Source: Candidatus Methanomethylicaceae archaeon
GTDB lineage: Archaea > Thermoproteota > Methanomethylicia > Methanomethylicales > Methanomethylicaceae
Direction: 5' to 3'
DNA: 64,000 nucleotides
Assembly: GCA_026414165.1 (NCBI GenBank)
Contig: JAOAJN010000004.1
Span: 1 to 64,000 of the forward strand
Position 1 is the stretch's first letter, and each line of letters starts with the position of its first letter. A program made the translations under genes and the position numbers. Below, in pieces: positions 45,212 through 58,374 of the stretch. Under the pieces are notes generated by a model, which saw only the letters and a list, made by a program, of their open reading frames with translations, was not told the DNA's origin and did no database searches.

Positions 45212-45718
45212 ATGAACAAAGTTCTCAACTCACTCACTAGGGAGGAGTTATTGGAGCTTGTCGAAGTGATGTCCAAGAACCTTCTGACACTTGACGGTTA
45301 CTGGTTCCTCTCTGTCGAGAACAGGTACGGACAAAGCATCGCGGTGGAGATCGACAGGGAGGCTTGGGAGCAGTTCGGCACGTCGGAGGCTAGGCGGATT
45401 AAGAAGTTCCTTAAGATAAGTGAGGGGACCTTGGAAGAGCTTGCAAAGGCACTCCACTTCACTTCAATCGCCCCAGTTTCCGCGGTCTGCGTAGAAAATA
45501 AAGGCAACAGTGTAGTTTTGAGCATAAAGAACTGCAGACCACAGACTGCAAGAATGAAGAGTGGAAGAGGGCTTTTCCCTTGTAAGCCTGTTGGTTTGGC
45601 TCATCTCTCAGCTTTTGCCAAGGTTATAAACCCTAAGTTTAGGGTCAAATGCCTTATTTGCCCTCCCGATGAACGTCCAAAGGATCTTTGGTGCTCTTGG
45701 GAATTCTATTTGGAGTAA
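45212..45718 (+). CDS. DUF6125-like protein
   Basis: A 168-aa protein resembling the DUF6125 group: LDGYWFLSVENRYGQSIAVEIDREAWEQFG near the start, a central CRPQTARMKSGRGLFPCKPVG, and a C-terminal CLICPPDERPKDLWCSWEF. Cysteines in CRPQ, FPCK, CLIC and WCSW may bind a metal or cofactor. Function unknown. Its 3' end overlaps the convergent radical SAM gene by 65 nt, a large overlap. Confidence 0.75.
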   Translation: MNKVLNSLTREELLELVEVMSKNLLTLDGYWFLSVENRYGQSIAVEIDREAWEQFGTSEARRIKKFLKISEGTLEELAKALHFTSIAPVSAVCVENKGNSVVLSIKNCRPQTARMKSGRGLFPCKPVGLAHLSAFAKVINPKFRVKCLICPPDERPKDLWCSWEFYLE

Positions 45719-46514
45719 ATACGCAGCACCACTCAACCTCTTTGACTTGCACCCCCGCAGACTCCGCGTACCTCAAAGTACTGTTTAGCGGGTTTGCGAT
45801 CCCGTCGAAACCTAAATCAACCGCAACCTCCTCTATCTCCTGACGATCTTTACCCCTGGTACGCATGCATCCCAAGGTCAGGTGTCCTCTGAACCTATCC
45901 CTGGCATAACCCATCACCCTTACAAGTTCGTCAAGCTCAGGCGACTTGGCGTCCATGGGCGTGAGTATTGAGAGTGCATCCACATTCGCCTCTGCTATCA
46001 TGTCTACCGCCTTAAACTCTCCAATTATTTTTCCTTCTTTGACTCCAACCAAGATGTGGGCTGCCACCAGTGGGATATGCCTTTTACCCTCTCGCAACAC
46101 ATCCGCGTAATCTACAGTTGACCATGCCCCTCCGAGGTATTCGTCTATAGTTTCCTGATCTCCTATAACATCTAGGAGTAAAGCATCCACCCCCGAGTCC
46201 CTCAGTTTATTTGCCTCCTTGATTAACCCTGAGTGCATCTCAACAACCAGTCCAGTCCTGATTTTGCCTTGCCTTATTGCGCCCATAAAGTCCATAACTG
46301 GCAGCCTGCCTCGTTTGTCAAAACCTCCGCTTATTAAGATGCTTTTTGCACCTTTCTCCTTCGCCCTTAGAAAAGCCTCAAGTAGACTTTCTGGATCTTC
46401 CACCGGCTCCATACCTAAGAGGTATTTCCCTTGACAATGTCTGCAACCCAACTCACACCGGTGACCAGTAATCGAGACGCTATACACCGATGGCTTTGGT
46501 CTGTAGCTAAACAC
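45654..46514 (-). CDS. radical SAM protein, LipS-type lipoyl synthase component
   Basis: A 286-aa radical SAM enzyme with the cluster motif C-x3-C-x2-C in HRCELGCRHCQGKYL. C-terminal cysteines (GCMRTRG, EWCCVF) could bind an auxiliary cluster. It is the last gene of a cluster with lplA, its small partner and a second radical SAM gene. That gene set matches the archaeal two-protein lipoyl synthase LipS1/LipS2. Which of the two this one is, I cannot say. The GTG start overlaps the preceding gene by 8 nt. Confidence 0.8.
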   Translation of the reverse strand: MFSYRPKPSVYSVSITGHRCELGCRHCQGKYLLGMEPVEDPESLLEAFLRAKEKGAKSILISGGFDKRGRLPVMDFMGAIRQGKIRTGLVVEMHSGLIKEANKLRDSGVDALLLDVIGDQETIDEYLGGAWSTVDYADVLREGKRHIPLVAAHILVGVKEGKIIGEFKAVDMIAEANVDALSILTPMDAKSPELDELVRVMGYARDRFRGHLTLGCMRTRGKDRQEIEEVAVDLGFDGIANPLNSTLRYAESAGVQVKEVEWCCVFTPNRIPKSTKDPLDVHREGK

Positions 46515-46785
46515 TATCGCTTCGCTCCTCTATGATTTCTGCAATATCTTCAAGAGCAAAACCCACAGTTCTGACTGCCTTCCTCATGGCAAAATCCCTT
46601 AGAGCTTCCCTTACCCTACTTAAATTTACTCCTTTCAAGCACCCTTCAATCTCATCAATCGCCTCCTCCGGGTGGACAAAAAAATCTCCGGAGATCTTCA
46701 CCTCCTTTATAATCCCGCCCTCCTCAACGAACCTTACCTTGATGAGCTTGCCCCCCTTCACCTTCTTGACCCCGATCCTCTCCAC
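46507..46785 (-). CDS. lplB: lipoate-protein ligase small (C-terminal domain) subunit
   Basis: A 92-aa protein corresponding to the C-terminal accessory domain of lipoate-protein ligase A, encoded separately as in Thermoplasma. KGGKLIKVRFVEEGGIIKEVKISGDFFVHPEEAIDEIE is typical of that domain. It lies 4 bp after lplA and overlaps the radical SAM gene. The start is GTG. It probably forms a complex with LplA needed for lipoate activation. Confidence 0.85.
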   Translation of the reverse strand: MERIGVKKVKGGKLIKVRFVEEGGIIKEVKISGDFFVHPEEAIDEIEGCLKGVNLSRVREALRDFAMRKAVRTVGFALEDIAEIIEERSDSV

Positions 46786-46789
46786 TAGA

Positions 46790-47548
46790 TTACCTCCTGA
46801 AGATCCATTCCTTTGACATGTACTTCCGTACTAACTCCCTCGCAAGCTCCCTCTCCTTATTGGTGATCTTTCCATAGCTCAACTCGAGCTGAAACGACTT
46901 ACCGAACTCCTCTGCCAAAATTTCTGCCACCGTTTTCCTTTCTGGCTCAAACTTGAGGACCTCCTTCAGCGTTGTGACCCTCCCACCGACCTCAGAAATC
47001 CCCTTATCCCTTAACTTTTCAGCCCTCGGTCTTAGTGCGCCAAGCAACGAATAATCAATGGAAAGAAGCAAGGTTCCGTGCTGTAGGACCGCCCCGAACC
47101 TCCTAGTTTGGGCATTTCCTGAAATCTTCTTGCCTGCAACCTCAATATCATTTATCGGTTTGAATACAGCATCGCCACCAAGCCTCCTGACGCATGCCAC
47201 TATTGGCGCACATATTCTCCTGTAACTCTCTTCAATATCCTCAGGTACGTAAGAACCATCATTATTCACCGCGAAGCTGTAGGTCAGCTCCCCCTCTGTG
47301 TGAAGCACTGCTCCCCCGCCAGTTATCCTTCTCACCACCTCTATTCCCCTCTCCCTACAAAAACCCAAATCGACCTCCTCCATGACCTCTTGAAAATAAC
47401 CCAAGGATACTGCCATCGGTGCCCATCCATAGAGCCTAAGGGTTGGTGGACTGCTTCCCTCCCCCACAGAGCGCGCAATGGCCTCGTCCAACGCCATATT
47501 ATAAAACGGATCATGTACCTCAAACCTTAAGACCCTCAAAACCTCCAA
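46790..47548 (-). CDS. lplA: lipoate-protein ligase A, large subunit
   Basis: A 252-aa ligase attaching lipoate or octanoate to E2/GcvH proteins. Family motifs are DPFYNMALDEAIA, LRLYGWAPMAVSLGYFQ, RRITGGGAVLHTEGELTYS (the RRxxGGG lipoate loop) and the catalytic lysine region DIEVAGKKISGNAQ. TTG 47548 has AGGAGGG 6 nt upstream and overlaps the preceding gene by 29 nt. A start at 47572 has no such signal. Confidence 0.92.
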   Translation of the reverse strand: MEVLRVLRFEVHDPFYNMALDEAIARSVGEGSSPPTLRLYGWAPMAVSLGYFQEVMEEVDLGFCRERGIEVVRRITGGGAVLHTEGELTYSFAVNNDGSYVPEDIEESYRRICAPIVACVRRLGGDAVFKPINDIEVAGKKISGNAQTRRFGAVLQHGTLLLSIDYSLLGALRPRAEKLRDKGISEVGGRVTTLKEVLKFEPERKTVAEILAEEFGKSFQLELSYGKITNKERELARELVRKYMSKEWIFRR

Positions 47549-48476
47549 ATAATTCCCTCCTGATCTCTTCAACCTCTTTACTCTCCAGTTTGCGAGGATA
47601 ATTGTAGATTGGTCCGGTGACCTTCTCGTTGAAGTACGGTCTGTTGCAGCTTGGGCACCCTCTGGTCATAAAGGCTTCCCCCTCCTCTATTACATCCTCC
47701 ACCTCGTCTCTGCAAATATTTATGCTAACTATTCTACCAAGACTGTCATATGTGAAATCCCTCTCGGTTGCCCTCCCACTAATTATTAGTTCCCTTGCCA
47801 GTTGCAGCCTTCTGTAGGATCTCAAATCTGGTTGAGGTCTCCCCCAAAGGGGCGTCCCCATTATAGGAGTGAAGGCGAAGAGCGAAGACATGATCCCAAT
47901 ACGGTGGCATTTTGAAACCAAGTTTACAATATCTCTCTCTGTCTCCCCAAGTCCTGCTATAATATGCGTTCCGACATTGTTCGGACCAAAGATCTCCAGT
48001 GCCTTTTCTAGAGCCCGCCAGTGGCTACCCCAGTCCCTTCCCTTAACTCTGCGGAACAATTCTTCATCAGCACAATCCAATGGTATTGTCAGCACGTCGA
48101 TCCCTGCTACCTTTAGCACGCGCAAGTCTTCATGGGGAGCAGGAGGCATAGAGATCGAAATTGGGATGTCAGTCTTATCCCTCAAACTCTCTACAAAGCA
48201 TGGAAGCCAATTCATCAACCCCTCTTCGTCGGCGCACTGCAAACAGATCCTTCTAAATCTCCGATTTTTCCTCAAACCTTTCAAGACTTCTTCTACAGGA
48301 AATTCGGGCCAGCTCACCCTTGAAATATTCTTTGATATGCCTATCGACTGAGGACAAAAGGCACACTTGCCTCTGCAACCATTATTGATTAAGAACAAAT
48401 ATGCCGTGGTGGGCGCATCCTTCTGAAGACAATCGATCAAACCTAGCTCGATGGCTGTACCAAAGGAGACTCTCAC
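47520..48476 (-). CDS. radical SAM protein, LipS-type lipoyl synthase component
   Basis: A 318-aa radical SAM enzyme with C-x3-C-x2-C in NGCRGKCAFCPQS. Further cysteines lie at LQCADEEG, LDCADEE and a C-terminal RGCPSCNRPYFNE that may hold a second cluster for sulphur donation. GTG 48476, 5 bp after the regulator stop, gives a family-like N-terminus (VSFGTAIELGL). A longer frame to 48665 overlaps the regulator and is rejected. Together with the other radical SAM gene of this cluster it probably inserts sulphur into protein-bound octanoate. Confidence 0.8.
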   Translation of the reverse strand: MRVSFGTAIELGLIDCLQKDAPTTAYLFLINNGCRGKCAFCPQSIGISKNISRVSWPEFPVEEVLKGLRKNRRFRRICLQCADEEGLMNWLPCFVESLRDKTDIPISISMPPAPHEDLRVLKVAGIDVLTIPLDCADEELFRRVKGRDWGSHWRALEKALEIFGPNNVGTHIIAGLGETERDIVNLVSKCHRIGIMSSLFAFTPIMGTPLWGRPQPDLRSYRRLQLARELIISGRATERDFTYDSLGRIVSINICRDEVEDVIEEGEAFMTRGCPSCNRPYFNEKVTGPIYNYPRKLESKEVEEIRRELFGGFEGLKV

Positions 48477-48481
48477 ACCCT

Positions 48482-49261
48482 TCAGAGGGGTAGCGCCTTG
48501 TCCCAAAGGTACTCGAAGGAGTCCGAGAAAACGCTCACCATGCCCGGGTTCTTTGTGTAGCCGGGTCTGTAGAAAACCCTGTTCTCCCCGCTCTTCTTTG
48601 CCCAAATTAGGAATGTCGCCTCTCTCCTGTCCACCAGAGTAAACCTCATACTCCTCCAGTCGCATCTTGCCAACCTCACCTCGATCTTGTTCTTCTTTAG
48701 GTCCTCGACCCTGCCCTCTGTTTCCTCATCGAGCGCCAACAAAAGCACTCTTACCCTAACTTTCCTATCTAGAGCCGAAAGCAACTCCTCTCTGACCTTT
48801 GGGTAGTAGCTGAACCGTTCTGCCAATATGGAGATATCTGAATTCGCACGAGATATCATCCTTATGGTCTCCATCTCCATGCTGGATAGCCCGTCTATCG
48901 TCTGCCAGAGATCTTCCAACCTGACGCCATACTTACTCTCGCTGTATATCGGCTCCAATACCATTTGGAGTTCGTTCACCGCTTTTCTCAGCTCAGCTAG
49001 CTGAAGATCCACCTCCACCTCCTTGAGCCTTAAGTACTTTTGAAGGAACGACCTCGGAGGCGAAGGAGAGACGAGATCGTCAACAAACTCTATGGCACCT
49101 AAAGAAGACATCTTTGAGAGGCACTCATTCAAGTCATTCTCATTTAGTCCTAAAACTCTCACCAATTCCTCTTTCTTGCAACTTCCCTTCTTGATTAAAT
49201 ATTCGTACAATTTGATCTCCAAATCAGAGAATCCAACAACCTTGAGTTTGTTGAAGGACAT
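48482..49261 (-). CDS. TrmB-like HTH regulator of the lipoate operon
   Basis: A 259-aa protein. An N-terminal winged HTH (FSDLEIKLYEYLIKKGSCKKEELVRVLGLNENDLNECLSKM, in part), a coiled-coil linker (about 80-105) and a C-terminal PLD/TrmB-like effector domain (RMISRANSDISILAERF, KVRVRVLLLAL) are visible. It is the first gene of the lipoate cluster, so it probably autoregulates the operon. The ligand may be lipoate-related, which is inference. Confidence 0.82.
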   Translation of the reverse strand: MSFNKLKVVGFSDLEIKLYEYLIKKGSCKKEELVRVLGLNENDLNECLSKMSSLGAIEFVDDLVSPSPPRSFLQKYLRLKEVEVDLQLAELRKAVNELQMVLEPIYSESKYGVRLEDLWQTIDGLSSMEMETIRMISRANSDISILAERFSYYPKVREELLSALDRKVRVRVLLLALDEETEGRVEDLKKNKIEVRLARCDWRSMRFTLVDRREATFLIWAKKSGENRVFYRPGYTKNPGMVSVFSDSFEYLWDKALPL

Positions 49262-51130: not shown

Positions 51131-51355
51131 TCAGAGCTCCACTAGAGTCTCTGTCTTCAACACTCCTTCAAGCGCTGCTATCTTTCTCACTAGGTCTCTG
51201 ACACTCTCCCTGCTGCCGACGTTACAGAACGCCACCACGTCAAACCTTCCAAAGGTTGGGAAAACGCTTAGAACCTCTGGCATCTTCTCCAGCTTCCCGA
51301 CAACGTCAAGGACTGAAACTTTCTCTGCATTTATTAACACAAGAACCTGAACCAA
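51131..51355 (-). CDS. stand-alone Lrp/AsnC ligand-binding (RAM) domain protein
   Basis: A 74-aa protein made of the AsnC effector domain only (VQVLVLINAEKVSVLDVVGKLEKMPEVLSVF; FDVVAFCNV). There is no HTH. TTG 51355 has GAGGTGA 5 nt upstream. Such domains bind amino acids and can pair with full-length Lrp proteins. Second of a tandem pair downstream of the methyl-transfer genes. Confidence 0.82.
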   Translation of the reverse strand: MVQVLVLINAEKVSVLDVVGKLEKMPEVLSVFPTFGRFDVVAFCNVGSRESVRDLVRKIAALEGVLKTETLVEL

Positions 51356-51372
51356 AAATTTCACCTCGCACC

Positions 51373-51603
51373 TCACAATAGCGTCTCTATTAGAGTCTCG
51401 GTCGAGACCACACCTGGGATCTTTGCTATCTCATATACCGTTATCCCTAGCTTCTCAAGGCTCTGAAACTCATATTCCACGACAACATCATATCCTCCGA
51501 GAGTCTCAAAGGCCCTCCTCACACCTTTTATCTCCTTTATCCTGTTCAGGACATCTGTTGCAGTTCCCGGCTTACAGTGTATAAGGACGCATGCCAGAAC
51601 CAA
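51373..51603 (-). CDS. stand-alone Lrp/AsnC ligand-binding (RAM) domain protein
   Basis: A 76-aa AsnC effector domain without HTH (VLACVLIHCKPGTATDVLNRIKEIKGV; GGYDVVVEYE). TTG 51603 follows GGGGGT. It ends just before its paralogue and starts 17 bp after the MtrH-like gene, so it may be co-transcribed with it. Possible role: sensing an amino acid such as methionine for this cluster (inference). Confidence 0.82.
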   Translation of the reverse strand: MVLACVLIHCKPGTATDVLNRIKEIKGVRRAFETLGGYDVVVEYEFQSLEKLGITVYEIAKIPGVVSTETLIETLL

Positions 51604-51619
51604 AATGACCCCCCACATA

Positions 51620-52489
51620 TCAGAGTTTCGCTAGGAACTTATAAAGTGGGTGGCTCTTCTCAACCGCCCTGCCCCTTAACCTTTCTCCGTATGCCTTTAT
51701 GCCCTCAACGGTGGCCACCGCCTCAAATATGTAGCCTGCCGCCTTAAGCGGTCCGTATAGTATGAAATCCGCTCCCGCGACCTGTATCATGGTGTTGAGC
51801 GCCACATTCATTGATCTCGCGACTCTCTTGCTCACCTTCTTCTTCAACAGCGGCTGATATGCAACATTGGAGGGCGCACAACCTGCTGGCAGTCCCAGCT
51901 CATTCTTAACTGCCTTAATTGACTCAGCCGCCAGCCAGACGCTGGTGAAGTCTATTATGCCGACATCAACAGCCACATCGGTGATACCGGCCTCCCTACA
52001 TCTGTCAAGGAGGCCCCCCTTTAACACCTGAAGCTTCTCTTCTGGGTATACCGCAGCAGGGTCAAGTGTCTGGACTATTGCGAATCTAATCTTGCTATCC
52101 TTTATAAATTCTAACTCCTTTTCACTGGTGTTGGGCGACACCGAGTTGATTCCACACCTGCCTGCTAGACCCAACTCACATGCCTTTCTGTAACCCGCTA
52201 TCCTAGTCTCTTCGTTGAGACCTCCGATTAGTAACGGGTCATCTGTTAACTCGGCAACTGTGGCTAAGTACTTTTCCATCGCCTCAGGGGTCTCTGCAAT
52301 TATGTCTAGGGCATGAAGTAGCCCTGTCTTCTCCTTTAGCTTTGAAACGCTCTTCAGCTCCTTGATGAGCGCGGGTCTATTCACATCGCCTCTTTTATGG
52401 TCTATGACCTTCTTGTCAGATTTGTAGAAAAGGCTGCCAATCATTATTGGCACATCGCCAAATTTAACGTTCCCTAACCGAACTTCCAT
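51620..52489 (-). CDS. mtrH: MtrH-like methyltetrahydropterin:corrinoid methyltransferase
   Basis: A 289-aa TIM-barrel protein of the MtrH family. MtrH moves the methyl of methyl-tetrahydromethanopterin to a corrinoid protein. Typical stretches are VPIMIGSLFYKSDKKVI, DPLLIGGLNEETRIAGY, GINSVSPNTSEKE and DVAVDVGIIDF. No other Mtr subunits (A-G) are nearby, so it is not the membrane Mtr complex. It starts inside the stop of the core-MetE gene (TGATG), showing tight coupling to it. Confidence 0.88.
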   Translation of the reverse strand: MEVRLGNVKFGDVPIMIGSLFYKSDKKVIDHKRGDVNRPALIKELKSVSKLKEKTGLLHALDIIAETPEAMEKYLATVAELTDDPLLIGGLNEETRIAGYRKACELGLAGRCGINSVSPNTSEKELEFIKDSKIRFAIVQTLDPAAVYPEEKLQVLKGGLLDRCREAGITDVAVDVGIIDFTSVWLAAESIKAVKNELGLPAGCAPSNVAYQPLLKKKVSKRVARSMNVALNTMIQVAGADFILYGPLKAAGYIFEAVATVEGIKAYGERLRGRAVEKSHPLYKFLAKL

Positions 52490-53376
52490 CAGCTCTTCAG
52501 CTCCCTTACCGCCATCACCATATTCTTGAGCTTCATAAAAGCCTCATCCCTTCTGAAGGACCTCAGCCCGCAATCGGGGTGGATCCACTCAATATTTTCA
52601 GATCCATACAACTCCAGCGCCCTAGTCAGCACCCTCTTAATAGAGTCCACATCTTCTACCTCTGGGCTCATCGTACTGACACATCCTACGCCCAGCCTCT
52701 TTGAGTAATCCTCCAAAAGTTTTTTCTCAACACTGTCAAAGTTGCTGACGTTGTCCTTGAATGAGAAGCTCAGAATATCTAGTCCTTCTATCTTAACAAT
52801 CTCCATAAATACCCTCCTAAGGTTCCCGCAAACATGAAGTGCCTTTGTCCCCTTCAAGTCTGAAACAATGCCTTCAAGAACCTTTCTCCCAATGTTCATG
52901 GGTGCCCCTATGGAAAAGCTGGGCTCGTCTATCTGTATCTTTGTAAAGCCCGCCTTCTGCATGATCTCGGCCTCCACAGCCAAGGCCGCACTCACGTCCT
53001 CGTATAGTTTCTCGTCCCTGAACCCAGCATAGGGCGCCTCCGGGGTCAGCTCTGAAAAGAAAACCATTGTGACCGGACCCGTAATTATAGCCTTCACCTC
53101 GGCTCTCTCTCCTGCCAACTTCCTTGCAAATATAAGGTCTTCCAATACTGGGGTCTCTTCTGGAGGTCTTACCTTCCCTACAATCTTTGCCTTTTCATCC
53201 TCAACCTTGAACCCCGTTATATGGTCTGCAAAGTAACATACCATGTCCTTTCTTGTCTGACCATCACTGATTATCTCGATCCCTGCATCCAGCTGATCCT
53301 TCACCGCGGTCTTTATAGCCTCCAGACCCTCACCAACTACTGGGTAGCTCCCGATGACAGTCGTCCTCATTCTCAT
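52489..53376 (-). CDS. core-MetE type cobalamin-dependent methionine synthase-like protein
   Basis: A 295-aa protein corresponding to the C-terminal catalytic half of MetE. The zinc/homocysteine site is visible as ALHVCGN (His and Cys) and HPDCGLRS (Cys), with IDEPSF between them. The N-terminal substrate-binding half of full MetE is absent. Core-MetE proteins are known to take methyl groups from corrinoids. The start overlaps the corrinoid protein stop (TAATG) and the end overlaps MtrH, forming a three-gene methyl relay. Confidence 0.85.
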   Translation of the reverse strand: MRMRTTVIGSYPVVGEGLEAIKTAVKDQLDAGIEIISDGQTRKDMVCYFADHITGFKVEDEKAKIVGKVRPPEETPVLEDLIFARKLAGERAEVKAIITGPVTMVFFSELTPEAPYAGFRDEKLYEDVSAALAVEAEIMQKAGFTKIQIDEPSFSIGAPMNIGRKVLEGIVSDLKGTKALHVCGNLRRVFMEIVKIEGLDILSFSFKDNVSNFDSVEKKLLEDYSKRLGVGCVSTMSPEVEDVDSIKRVLTRALELYGSENIEWIHPDCGLRSFRRDEAFMKLKNMVMAVRELKS

Positions 53377-54014
53377 TACTTCTCTTTCCTCCCAACAATC
53401 TCCCTTGCTATCTTTACAGCCTCGTTCGCGTCCCTACCATACGCATCTGCTCTTATTTTTCTTGCAATCTCTTGGCTCATGGCTGCGCCACCCACCATCA
53501 CCTTGAGATCTCTTGAGACCTTCCTTGCCCTCTCGATCACGTTGGCACCCTTATCTATGTCAGAAGTCAGCAGAATGGAGAGAGCGAGTATATCCACTTT
53601 ATTATTTCTTAGAAAATCCTCCACAACACTCGGCGTCACATTGATGCCCATGTCCAGCACCTTGAAACCATCTGCGATCAGCATCGACGAGACTATGGTC
53701 TTTCCTATATCATGCGGTCCCAGCGATCCTATTGCGATCACTCCCTGCCCCTCACTAACCTTCTCCTTAATCATCATCGGCAGCACAACGCCCAAAGATG
53801 CCTTGGCTGCATTGGCAGCCCTCATAACCTCAGGCAGAAAGAGCTCTCCCTTCTCAAACAAATCTCCCACTAACTTTAGACCATCCGCTATCACATCAAT
53901 TATATCCTTTGGTTGCGCCCCGCCCCGCAAAAATTCTTCGGCGAGATCTTTAGCTTTTCTTTGGTTCTGCTCGAGCAGAGCCTCCTTGAGTGCCTCAAGT
54001 TTAACCTTGCTCAA
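53376..54014 (-). CDS. corrinoid (B12-binding) methyl carrier protein
   Basis: A 212-aa MtaC/MtbC-like protein. The N-terminal helical cap (B12-binding 2 domain, about 1-85) is followed by a Rossmann-like cobalamin domain. The base-off motif is GPHDIG with H101 as cobalt ligand. The Asp that normally lies two residues before the His (DxHxxG) is Gly here. Later motifs are intact (LALSILLTS, MVGGAAMS). TTG 54014 follows GAGGGA at 6 nt. A longer frame to 54098 would overlap the divergent ACT gene promoter. It is the first gene of the methyl-transfer operon. Confidence 0.85.
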   Translation of the reverse strand: MSKVKLEALKEALLEQNQRKAKDLAEEFLRGGAQPKDIIDVIADGLKLVGDLFEKGELFLPEVMRAANAAKASLGVVLPMMIKEKVSEGQGVIAIGSLGPHDIGKTIVSSMLIADGFKVLDMGINVTPSVVEDFLRNNKVDILALSILLTSDIDKGANVIERARKVSRDLKVMVGGAAMSQEIARKIRADAYGRDANEAVKIAREIVGRKEK

Positions 54015-54101
54015 CCATAGTCCCTCGCGATGTTTCCAATATCCATACGAAAACTTAATTAGATTTTCTGTACGATCTTCGATGGTCACTCGGTGCAATA
54101 T

Positions 54102-54359
54102 ATGCCTGATAGATACATGGTAATTACCGCCGTGGGGCCAGATCGCCCCGGCCTAATCGCCGAGATCTCTTCAGTGATATCCGAGTTCGGTTGCAATATT
54201 GAAGACATGGATCAGGTAGTCATGAAGGGGATCTTCATACTCTCAATGCTCATCAAGCTCGCTCCAGCTTTGGATCTCAATACCTTCCGTAAGAAGCTGG
54301 AGTACTTGTGCCATGAGCTTGGGCTAGAGGTGTCTTTCTATTATGCAGGCGGACGATAG
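54102..54359 (+). CDS. ACT domain protein
   Basis: An 85-aa protein consisting of one ACT domain of the GcvR/UPF0237 type (MVITAVGPDRPGLIAEISSVISEFGCNIEDMDQVV). It overlaps the following serB by 17 nt. That gene also starts with an ACT domain, so the two probably form a regulatory pair. Start ATG 54102. Confidence 0.9.
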   Translation: MPDRYMVITAVGPDRPGLIAEISSVISEFGCNIEDMDQVVMKGIFILSMLIKLAPALDLNTFRKKLEYLCHELGLEVSFYYAGGR

Positions 54360-55275
54360 GTTAGTCATCACAGTCCTGGGTAAAGACCGTCCGGGCATCG
54401 TTGCCACGGTGGCTGGGGTCCTTGCCAGATTTCATGCAAACATTGTAAAGACAAGGGCTTCGACAATCTTTAACGACCTCTTTCTAATGATTATGGTAGT
54501 GGACACCAAGACCTCAATTATTAGGAGAGATGTCCTATTGAACATCCTAAAGAATAGCTGTGACGATGTAGGTTTGGCACTGGCCGCAGAGTCCTGCCAG
54601 AGCTACAAGTGCGGAAAGAAGATTATTGTCTTTGACTTGGATGGTACCTTAATAGAGCAAGAGGTAATTGAGGAGTTGGCAAAGGCTGCTGGTGTCGGAG
54701 AAGAGGTCAAGAAGATCACAAAGCTTGCGATGGAGGGGAAGTTGAACTTCCTTGAGGCTCTGAAAGCGAGAGTCAAGCTATTGGAGGGTCTTCCGGTTGA
54801 GGTTATGGACAGAATAAAATCATCAATAAAAATTAACCCTGGCGTAAGAGAGTTGATCGCCAAACTCAAGGAGCTCGGCTTCATAATAGGGATAGTGACT
54901 GGAAGCTTTGATTTTGCCGCCGAGCATGTCGGTAGAATGATAGGCGCTGACTATGTCTTCTCAAACAGATTGATCGTAAAAGATGGACGTCTTACAGGCG
55001 AGGTTGAGGGCGACATGACCGGCCCTGAAGCAAAGCTCAGAGCAATAAAAACCATCGCTGCGAAGATCGGTGTGGGCTTAGAGGCATGTGTGGCCGTCGG
55101 AGACGGGGCAAACGACCTTTTCATGATAGAAAATGTTGGTCTTGGTATCGGATACAAACCAAAGCTCGTGGTCAGAGAGAGGGCTCATGGAGTTGTGAAC
55201 ACAGAGGATGCAAGAGTTCTCTTAGCCCTTATAGGCTGCGTCGACCTGAGGAAAGACATAGTATGCCGGCTATAA
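54343..55275 (+). CDS. serB: phosphoserine phosphatase with N-terminal ACT domain
   Basis: A 310-aa protein. An N-terminal ACT domain (LVITVLGKDRPGIVATVAGVLARF) spans residues 1-85. A HAD phosphatase follows with the nucleophile motif FDLDGTLIE, then SFDFAAEHVG and GDGANDLFM. It is the last step of serine synthesis, with probable feedback by an amino acid through ACT. The 17-nt overlap with the ACT gene suggests coupled translation. Confidence 0.93.
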   Translation: MQADDRLVITVLGKDRPGIVATVAGVLARFHANIVKTRASTIFNDLFLMIMVVDTKTSIIRRDVLLNILKNSCDDVGLALAAESCQSYKCGKKIIVFDLDGTLIEQEVIEELAKAAGVGEEVKKITKLAMEGKLNFLEALKARVKLLEGLPVEVMDRIKSSIKINPGVRELIAKLKELGFIIGIVTGSFDFAAEHVGRMIGADYVFSNRLIVKDGRLTGEVEGDMTGPEAKLRAIKTIAAKIGVGLEACVAVGDGANDLFMIENVGLGIGYKPKLVVRERAHGVVNTEDARVLLALIGCVDLRKDIVCRL

Positions 55276-56619: not shown

Positions 56620-57039
56620 ATGTCCGAGAGTTTTGATGATGAGCTTGAAAGGATAAAAGCCAGAAAACTCTCAGAGATAATGACAAAGAAATACACCGGT
56701 GGTGAGAAAAAAATGAGCCATGGTTATATAGAACTTAACGATCAAACATTCGACTCTTTCGTATCCACAGCCGATAAATTGGTAGTCATTGACTTTTGGG
56801 CATCATGGTGCGGACCTTGCATGATAATGGCGCCCATATTTGAGCAACTCGCCAAAAAATACGAAGGGAAGGCACTTATGGCAAAAATGAATGTCGATGA
56901 GAATCCAGAGGTTCCCCAGAGGCTTGGGATCTACGGGATCCCCACATTCATATTCTTCAAGAACGGTAAAGAAGTAGGGCGCCTCGTGGGTGCTGTAGGG
57001 GCGAGTGGTCTCGAAGCTGAGATTAAGAAGCACCTTTAA
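56620..57039 (+). CDS. trxA: thioredoxin with N-terminal extension
   Basis: A 139-aa protein. The active site WCGPC (C64, C67) and cis-Pro (GIPTFIFF) are intact. Residues 1-32 are an extra charged helix (DDELERIKARKLSEIM) like the start of PDCD5-family nucleic-acid-binding proteins. An internal ATG at 56713 (MSHGYIELNDQTF) would give a normal ~108-aa thioredoxin, so two products are possible. Confidence 0.93.
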   Translation: MSESFDDELERIKARKLSEIMTKKYTGGEKKMSHGYIELNDQTFDSFVSTADKLVVIDFWASWCGPCMIMAPIFEQLAKKYEGKALMAKMNVDENPEVPQRLGIYGIPTFIFFKNGKEVGRLVGAVGASGLEAEIKKHL

Positions 57040-57135
57040 ATTCGAAAGTAACAATTAAAAATCAAACACTCTGATCTAAAAATTTAAAAACCAAAACCTC
57101 AAAACTAATTTTTTCTCTTATGGAGGGTAATCCTG

Positions 57136-57903
57136 TTGAGGTTCATTGACTCCCATACCCACACCTACCTTAGGGGCCCAGAAGACCTTGAGCTTATGTC
57201 TGTTGCTGGTGTGGAGGGCGTCATCATCTGCTCCTTTTTCCCACTTCAGCCATCGGGTTTTTCAACGATGCGCGATCTGTTCCGTTGGGTCATGGAAGTA
57301 GAGCCGATGAGACTCAGCTCGTATGGAATAAGCTCAAGGGTTGCTGTGGGAATTCACCCGAGGTCCATTCCCGAGGAGGACCTCAAGGTGGTATTGGATC
57401 ATATACTTGCCCTATTCGACAACGAAAAAGCCTCCGCACTCGGCGAAGTTGGTCTAGAGACTGGTAGTCAAGAAGAGGAGTATGTGTTAATCCAACAGAT
57501 TAGGATCGCAAACGAGTATCCCGTCCCGATGATCATGCACACTCCAAGGAACAATAAAGAGAAGATCGTGGAACGCCTTCTCTCAATTATCGAGTCCGAG
57601 AATGTAGACCCTGCAAGGGTCATAATCGATCACCTGACTCCCGACCTAGTGGCTAAGGTGAGATCTATAGGTGCAAACGTAGGTCTGACCGTCCAGCCTG
57701 GCAAACTCACGCCCAAAGACATCCACGAAGTCATAATGAAGAACGGTCCAGAAGGCATCATCGTCAACAGCGACATCGGAAATAAACCTTCAGATCCACT
57801 CTCTATCCCACGAGTCGCCCACTATCTTGACCGTGCTGGAGTCGGTGGCAGGGACATACAAATGATCACATACTCTAACATAAGGGCGCTCATTCCGCTC
57901 TGA
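57136..57903 (+). CDS. TatD-family metal-dependent hydrolase
   Basis: A 255-aa TIM-barrel hydrolase. Metal ligands appear as FIDSHTHTY, LGEVGLE, PMIMHTPR and IDHL, with a final IIVNSDIG. TatD enzymes are nucleases or amidohydrolases, and the substrate here is unknown. TTG 57136 follows GGAGGGTAA by 5 nt. Confidence 0.88.
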   Translation: MRFIDSHTHTYLRGPEDLELMSVAGVEGVIICSFFPLQPSGFSTMRDLFRWVMEVEPMRLSSYGISSRVAVGIHPRSIPEEDLKVVLDHILALFDNEKASALGEVGLETGSQEEEYVLIQQIRIANEYPVPMIMHTPRNNKEKIVERLLSIIESENVDPARVIIDHLTPDLVAKVRSIGANVGLTVQPGKLTPKDIHEVIMKNGPEGIIVNSDIGNKPSDPLSIPRVAHYLDRAGVGGRDIQMITYSNIRALIPL

Positions 57904-58029
57904 AAAGCGGCGACAAATCACAGAAAATAGACAACATGACTAAAATAAACATCAAAAATGACAATTTCTCATTCTTATTGCCAACACTTATTTAAGCCTT
58001 GGAAACCCAAATACATCAAGGTGTTTTAA

Positions 58030-58374
58030 ATGACGAAGCGTGTTATAGACCCTAAAGAAGCACGCACATTCGTGCCCCCACTACACTATGGCTGCATCAC
58101 CAGAGTCTTGCTGGAGGAGGCAAATGTTGGATGCAAGAACCTCTCCATGTTCAGATCCGAGTTCGAGGTTGGCGGAAGGGCGGATCCTCACACCCATCCC
58201 TTCGAACAGGCTTACTACATACTGAAGGGGAGAGCACTTGTCACAATAGGAAACGAGGAGTATAAGGTGAAGGCAGGAAATGCGCTCGTTTTCCCTCCAA
58301 ATGTCCCGCACTCCATAAAGAACATCGGGAAGACCCCCCTCTGGCTCATCGCCGTTAACGCGCCTCCCAAATGA
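58030..58374 (+). CDS. cupin domain protein
   Basis: A 114-aa single cupin. Motif 1 is G-x5-HTHPFEQAYYILKG and motif 2 is FPPNVPHSIKN, giving three His and one Glu for a metal. Function unknown. It lies 59 bp upstream of the aminotransferase on the same strand and may be part of the same pyrimidine/amino acid unit. Confidence 0.9.
   Translation: MTKRVIDPKEARTFVPPLHYGCITRVLLEEANVGCKNLSMFRSEFEVGGRADPHTHPFEQAYYILKGRALVTIGNEEYKVKAGNALVFPPNVPHSIKNIGKTPLWLIAVNAPPK

Follow-up and report, generated by a model that had tools for sequence, protein, structure and literature searches.

Which protein methylates the core methionine synthases of archaea where CoFeSP and Mtr are missing? The window analysed here, a stretch of 64,000 nucleotides within contig C37 of an archaeal genome of 1.19 Mb (a Ca. 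Methanomethylicota MAG, 86% complete), suggests a concrete and testable answer. It carries genes for a small corrinoid protein, a core-MetE and an MtrH-like protein, and this operon is probably a three-component, corrinoid-dependent methionine synthase.

The three genes lie on the minus strand and are transcribed in the order corrinoid protein, core-MetE, MtrH-like protein, each overlapping its neighbour by one base. The first (53376-54014; 212 aa; PF02607/PF02310) encodes a corrinoid (B12-binding) methyl carrier protein. The TTG at 54014 is the correct start: a longer ORF would run into the divergent ACT gene, and the extra upstream stretch is broken in a sister genome. The second (52489-53376; 295 aa; PF01717, PRK00957) encodes a MesA-like core-MetE, a proposed methylcorrinoid:homocysteine methyltransferase, and the third (51620-52489; 289 aa; PF02007) an MtrH-like TIM barrel, a proposed methyl-tetrahydropterin:corrinoid-protein methyltransferase. 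At the TAATG junction the final A of the corrinoid-gene TAA is the first base of the core-MetE ATG, and at the TGATG junction the core-MetE TGA overlaps the MtrH-like ATG. The sequence-only reading of this DNA had given the same order and single-base overlaps, and its coordinates and families agree with Pfam, NCBIfam and the junctions; the operon, however, extends beyond that trio into two minus-strand AsnC/Lrp genes downstream of mtrH (51131-51618). These (51373-51618 and 51131-51376) each encode a stand-alone ligand-binding (RAM) domain (PF01037) without a DNA-binding domain, and, as a guess, the pair could be an amino-acid sensor, for instance of methionine. A short divergent intergenic region (54015-54092) presumably holds, from the gene layout, the promoters of the operon and of its plus-strand neighbours (54093-55275), which Pfam identifies as an ACT-domain protein (54093-54359) and an ACT-HAD SerB-like phosphatase (54343-55275). 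Regarding RNA regulators, an Rfam search of the window gave no match. Elsewhere in the window, the archaeal lipoate set LipS1, LplB, LplA and LipS2 is encoded by adjoining genes (45654-48665).

The same layout is found in named genomes of the Methanomethylicaceae, a methane-producing family beyond the classical methanogens. A search of the 23 genomes of the order found core-MetE in 22, of which 21 are of the Methanomethylicaceae type, and at these 21 loci core-MetE is preceded by the corrinoid gene and followed by MtrH unless a contig ends there (the upstream portion is missing in L013, and MtrH is cut in L018 and L021). In the family member with no core-MetE match (G005), the contig starts inside MtrH. 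Conservation of the trio, which had been left as a point to check, is therefore seen in each sampled Methanomethylicaceae locus, contig ends apart, and with the same proviso the family also retains both AsnC genes and the divergent ACT/SerB neighbours. Gene order is held over core-MetE identities of 62-92%, from the nearest relatives (JZ-2_bin_200, WYZ-LMO10 and one Yellowstone MAG, 88-92% identical to the window's protein) to Methanomethylicus and Methanosuratincola (62-64%); the named relatives belong to Candidatus Methanomethylicota (Verstraetearchaeota). Between the window and sister genomes, the trio genes have dN of 0.04-0.09 and dS of 0.5-1.4, with dN/dS of about 0.03-0.12, and all three are therefore under purifying selection.

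The core-MetE matches Meth_synt_2 (E 3e-38) and scores 260.3 bits against the NCBIfam 'methionine synthase' equivalog PRK00957, a marginal result given the cut-off of 258. It is the catalytic MetE domain alone, and the genome has no separate PF08267 protein. Its AlphaFold model (pLDDT 95.7) has T. maritima MetE with zinc/homocysteine as its best PDB matches; the structure also lies near MtaA (4ay7, TM 0.74), and the URO-D/MtaA models match the protein weakly. The homocysteine residues S10, Q40 and D150 (Ser, Gln, Asp) are retained. As for zinc, the His-Cys and Cys ligands that had been reported from the letters alone are present in the residue alignment (H181, C183, C269), but the fourth ligand, the Glu of MetE, is Ser205 in the window and Ser or Ala in every family member. 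Many other archaeal core-MetEs have Ala or Gly at this position, and loss of the zinc Glu in some MesC proteins was deemed probably incompatible with zinc binding (PMC7857596). Asp208, three residues from the lost Glu, was considered as a substitute ligand and rejected, since an Asp follows the intact Glu in most Desulfurococcaceae proteins.

The MtrH-like protein matches PF02007 (E 9e-46) and scores 133.6 bits against TIGR01114, the equivalog for MtrH of the Mtr complex, below its cut-off of 271.4; no Mtr genes were found in the operon neighbourhood, either in the window or at the conserved loci. The best structural match of its AlphaFold model (pLDDT 88.8) is MtgA with methyl-THF. Five of the six residues of the MtgA pterin site (Ser32, Asp75, Asp102, Asn129, Asp194, Asn227) are kept and invariant, as S19, D62, N115, D175 and N208, and Asp102 is replaced by Gly89 in the Methanomethylicaceae. 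An Asp at this position is kept by 18 of 21 MtrHs from outside the Gly89 group, and the D102A mutant of MtgA lost its activity (PMC7154762). MtrH is single-copy in 22 of the 23 genomes of the order. The remaining genome, G017, has a second pair, mtrA-mtrH (L085 10536-12235), with a true-MtrH score, which adjoins phenylacetate-CoA-ligase-like, DUF169-like and CobW-like genes. In G001, from an outgroup family of the order (L086 133-996, L088 2671-3705), a Gly-type MtrH adjoins thioredoxin/TatD/cupin genes that are syntenic with window positions 56620-58374, with no core-MetE or corrinoid gene beside it; this genome has no MTHFR, and at another locus it encodes a different core-MetE with all four zinc ligands. 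Across the phylum, seven MtrH-like matches are each interrupted by a single in-frame stop (TGA, TAA or TAG; for instance G167:C32, G098:C13, G063:C244 and G231:C1) and are pseudogenes, assembly artefacts or cases of recoding.

The corrinoid protein has B12-binding and B12-binding_2 domains (E about 1e-16), and its PDB kin are MttC, MtmC and MetH. The axial His is retained (GPHDIGK), the Asp of the DxHxxG motif is absent, the B12 loop has two residues fewer than in any other lineage compared, and TSD stands where TPS or TTT is usual. The short loop, the missing Asp and the TSD are present in all 17 relatives checked. A different change was seen in corrinoid-like proteins paired with MtrH in family f39 (L181 460-1095, L183 3469-4131, L185 4523-5185, L188 200-844), which carry Gln instead of the axial His in the B12 motif (GNIQNLGK/GNIQGLGK).

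In order to identify other routes to methionine, the 23 genomes of the order were surveyed family by family with profile searches. The homocysteine domain of MetH (PF02574) gave no match over the cut-off in any of them, while controls were detected, and the model of the MetE N-terminal (folate) domain gave only sub-threshold matches, all inside core-MetE itself. PF01717 matches a single protein in the window's genome. Thus neither this genome, at 86% completeness, nor any of its 22 relatives showed a separate complete methionine synthase, which would have spoken against the earlier reading. Donors predicted for core synthases are CoFeSP for MesB and MesC, and MtrA for MesA (PMC7857596). CoFeSP was ruled out as donor by the absence of CdhD from the 23 genomes, save for a fragment in one genome that is 74% complete. 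MtrA was also set aside, judging from MtrH rather than from a search for MtrA, as the second MtrH of an mtrA-mtrH pair occurs only in G017. With no MetH, no MetE folate domain and no CoFeSP donor, no methionine synthase other than the trio is visible, and since the predicted donors are missing, the corrinoid protein encoded in the operon itself is the obvious carrier.

Regarding the source of the methyl group, a MetF-type MTHFR was found in 19 of the 23 genomes, including the window's own, where it adjoins a MetV-type partner. Of the four genomes that lack it, three are at 59-77% completeness; the last is G001, which belongs to the other family and also lacks a core-MetE of the window type. 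The F420-dependent Mer, considered as an alternative methyl source, gave no match over the cut-off in the genomes searched. The presence of MTHFR means that methyl-pterin can be made. FolD is also absent from the genomes searched, so that the route to methylene-pterin is incomplete among the families searched; serine is a natural guess for its origin, and the ACT/SerB neighbours of the operon form a possible link to serine as the C1 source. The donor had been named earlier as methyl-H4MPT, but with a MetF/MetV-type MTHFR and no F420-Mer, methyl-H4F is at least as possible.

Taken together, the most probable scheme would begin with methyl-tetrahydropterin, most likely supplied by the MetF/MetV-type methylene-tetrahydropterin reductase. 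The MtrH-like barrel would transfer its methyl group to the cob(I)amide of the small corrinoid protein, and the MesA-like core-MetE would pass it from there to zinc-activated homocysteine to give methionine. The three proteins would stand in for the modules of MetH, with a homocysteine barrel of the MetE rather than the MetH type. The data show directly the order of the genes and its conservation, their families, folds and selection, the independent cluster described below and, for nearly all these genomes, the lack of another methionine synthase or of CoFeSP as a donor; the catalytic activity, the direction of MtrH and the identity of the pterin are what we infer. The sequence-only reading had proposed such a relay, from pterin through corrinoid to homocysteine without MetH, and it remains the best reading given the lack of an alternative synthase, the conservation of the locus and an analogous cluster described below. 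Less secure are H4MPT as the donor, given the MetF/MetV-type MTHFR and the absence of F420-Mer, canonical catalysis, given the loss of three acidic residues, and the direction of MtrH. These invariant losses fall one in each protein: Asp102 to Gly in MtrH, the Asp of the corrinoid loop, and the zinc Glu to Ser or Ala in core-MetE. Judged from the aligned sequences, the three departures under strong constraint are the oddest part of the system and argue most strongly against a canonical mechanism.

A profile search of 398 genomes of the phylum showed that the majority of MtrH genes are not near core-MetE. It also revealed, in family f11, a single cluster of MetF-like, core-MetE-like, canonical corrinoid protein, RACo-type reactivase and MtrH genes. 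All five are present in G024, G061, G157, G163, G221 and G336, and G352 lacks the reactivase (L206 7287-12319 and L207 3925-8955; also L192, L199, L200, L202 and L208, the last without reactivase). The MetF-like proteins have weak or no match to MTHFR models. The core-MetEs of these genomes are of a different type, related to the window's protein by profile with 99.7% probability; nearly all have all four zinc ligands, and the active-site residues of the cluster are intact. The family was assigned to the Desulfurococcaceae, including Staphylothermus marinus and S. hellenicus, which are sulfur-dependent heterotrophs and not methanogens. This is apparently an undescribed, analogous methionine-synthase cluster, and its presence in non-methanogens supports the anabolic reading of the trio. 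In a further family, core-MetE and MtrH occur in tandem (G368). The MtrH tree places the Methanomethylicales, G368 and most f11 proteins on one side of a 99/95 branch, and M. mazei MtrH, MtgA and MtxA on the other. Every one of the 17 Methanomethylicaceae rows has a core-MetE near MtrH, as do 8 of the 11 other clade members, as opposed to none of 19 loci outside the clade, so the MtrH clade follows linkage to a methionine-synthase barrel and not methanogenesis. This points to a branch of MtrH for methionine synthesis, distinct from the methanogenic one. Among the loci examined from Brockarchaeota, Bathyarchaeia and Thermoplasmata, some core-MetEs lie near a canonical corrinoid gene but without MtrH. 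Tentatively, an archaeal class of modular methionine synthases, made of a dedicated MtrH clade, a corrinoid protein and an exchangeable core-MetE, might be the equivalent of MetH; in the Methanomethylicaceae it would have been chemically rebuilt, with the carboxylate lost at all three sites, and would still be the sole methionine synthase.

The members of the order are methyl-reducing methanogens, with McrA in all 23 genomes, which makes a methanogenic role conceivable, and methylotrophic methyltransferases and the absence of the Wood-Ljungdahl pathway have been reported for them (PMC10033731). MtrH could then work in reverse, with methylated methanogenic substrates loading the corrinoid protein, core-MetE drawing methionine from it, MtrH feeding C1 units to tetrahydropterin and MTHFR acting oxidatively; MtgA, the nearest solved relative, runs in this direction. 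We consider this arrangement unlikely, because neither the operon nor its conserved surroundings has a recognisable MttB, MtmB or MtaB substrate methyltransferase, and Staphylothermus-type genomes have the set beside a MetF-like protein with no methanogenesis. It is also countered by MetH and AcsE, in which such barrels work from methyl-pterin to corrinoid.

The joint and invariant loss of an acidic active-site residue from every protein could alternatively mean that the trio has diverged from canonical catalysis, towards regulation or an unrelated methyl transfer, with methionine taken up from outside. This is improbable, since the remaining catalytic and substrate residues do not vary, purifying selection acts on the genes, and the loss of the zinc Glu is common to many archaeal core-MetEs. 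Moreover, spectroscopy of MetE indicates that the homocysteine thiolate is able to replace an oxygen ligand on zinc. Finally, a catabolic role, in which the corrinoid protein and MtrH would serve methanogenesis on some unknown methylated compound, with coenzyme M methylated by the MetE-like protein, follows the published reading of such genes in the Methanomethylicia (PMC10033731) and the structural nearness to MtaA, but is very improbable, as the acceptor belongs to PF01717/PRK00957 with its weak URO-D/MtaA matches, its family, fold and substrate residues disfavour coenzyme M, a methionine synthase would otherwise be missing from these genomes, and non-methanogens have the analogous cluster.

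Earlier work has touched on parts of the three-component methionine synthase proposed here. Loh et al. (2021, PMC7886697) noted a metE beside the CoP-MtrH couple of Ca. Methanomethylicus mesodigestum and left its function open, and suggested that the Bathy-6 couple was possibly anabolic. The former is this very locus, described there from one genome of the same archaeal order. Lynes et al. took the proximity of mtrH to corrinoid genes in Methanomethylicia as a sign of methanogenesis on unknown substrates (PMC10033731), and Price et al. found MesA in methanogens only (PMC7857596). In the literature searched, from which subscription papers were mostly absent so that novelty is provisional, we found no description of the trio as a methionine synthase or of the Staphylothermus cluster. 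The present analysis adds the conservation of the locus, the absent alternatives, the MTHFR, the residues and the independent cluster. Genes published as methanogenic are more likely part of amino-acid synthesis, and moving mtrH and corrinoid genes from the one to the other in Methanomethylicota alters the predicted energy metabolism of these archaea. The cultured relatives Methanosuratincola and Staphylothermus make the proposal testable.

Among known systems, MesA (METE_METTM; Price et al. 2021, PMC7857596) is likewise a lone C-terminal MetE domain of about 300 aa that matches PRK00957; both have Gln in place of MetE Glu484 and both are expected to use a methylcorrinoid protein. MesA keeps the zinc Glu, whereas the Methanomethylicaceae have Ser or Ala, and the Methanomethylicaceae type has a corrinoid protein and an MtrH of its own in the operon, in genomes with no CoFeSP and mostly no Mtr. 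The core-MetE of the MesB/MesC systems is also thought to be corrinoid-fed, in that case by CoFeSP of the Wood-Ljungdahl pathway, while the genomes with the trio lack CODH/ACS and CoFeSP, the one CdhD fragment apart. MtgA-MtgC of Desulfitobacterium and other MtrH-corrinoid pairs combine, as here, an MtrH-family barrel with a small corrinoid protein of the MtbC/MtgC kind; the trio differs in having no MttB-type demethylase, a core-MetE as acceptor, Gly in place of Asp102 and a separate clade in the tree. MetH follows the same three-step logic, with a methyl-pterin barrel, a corrinoid module and a zinc homocysteine barrel, but in the trio these are separate proteins, the homocysteine barrel is PF01717 instead of PF02574, the pterin barrel is of the MtrH type, and the operon carries no reactivation domain.
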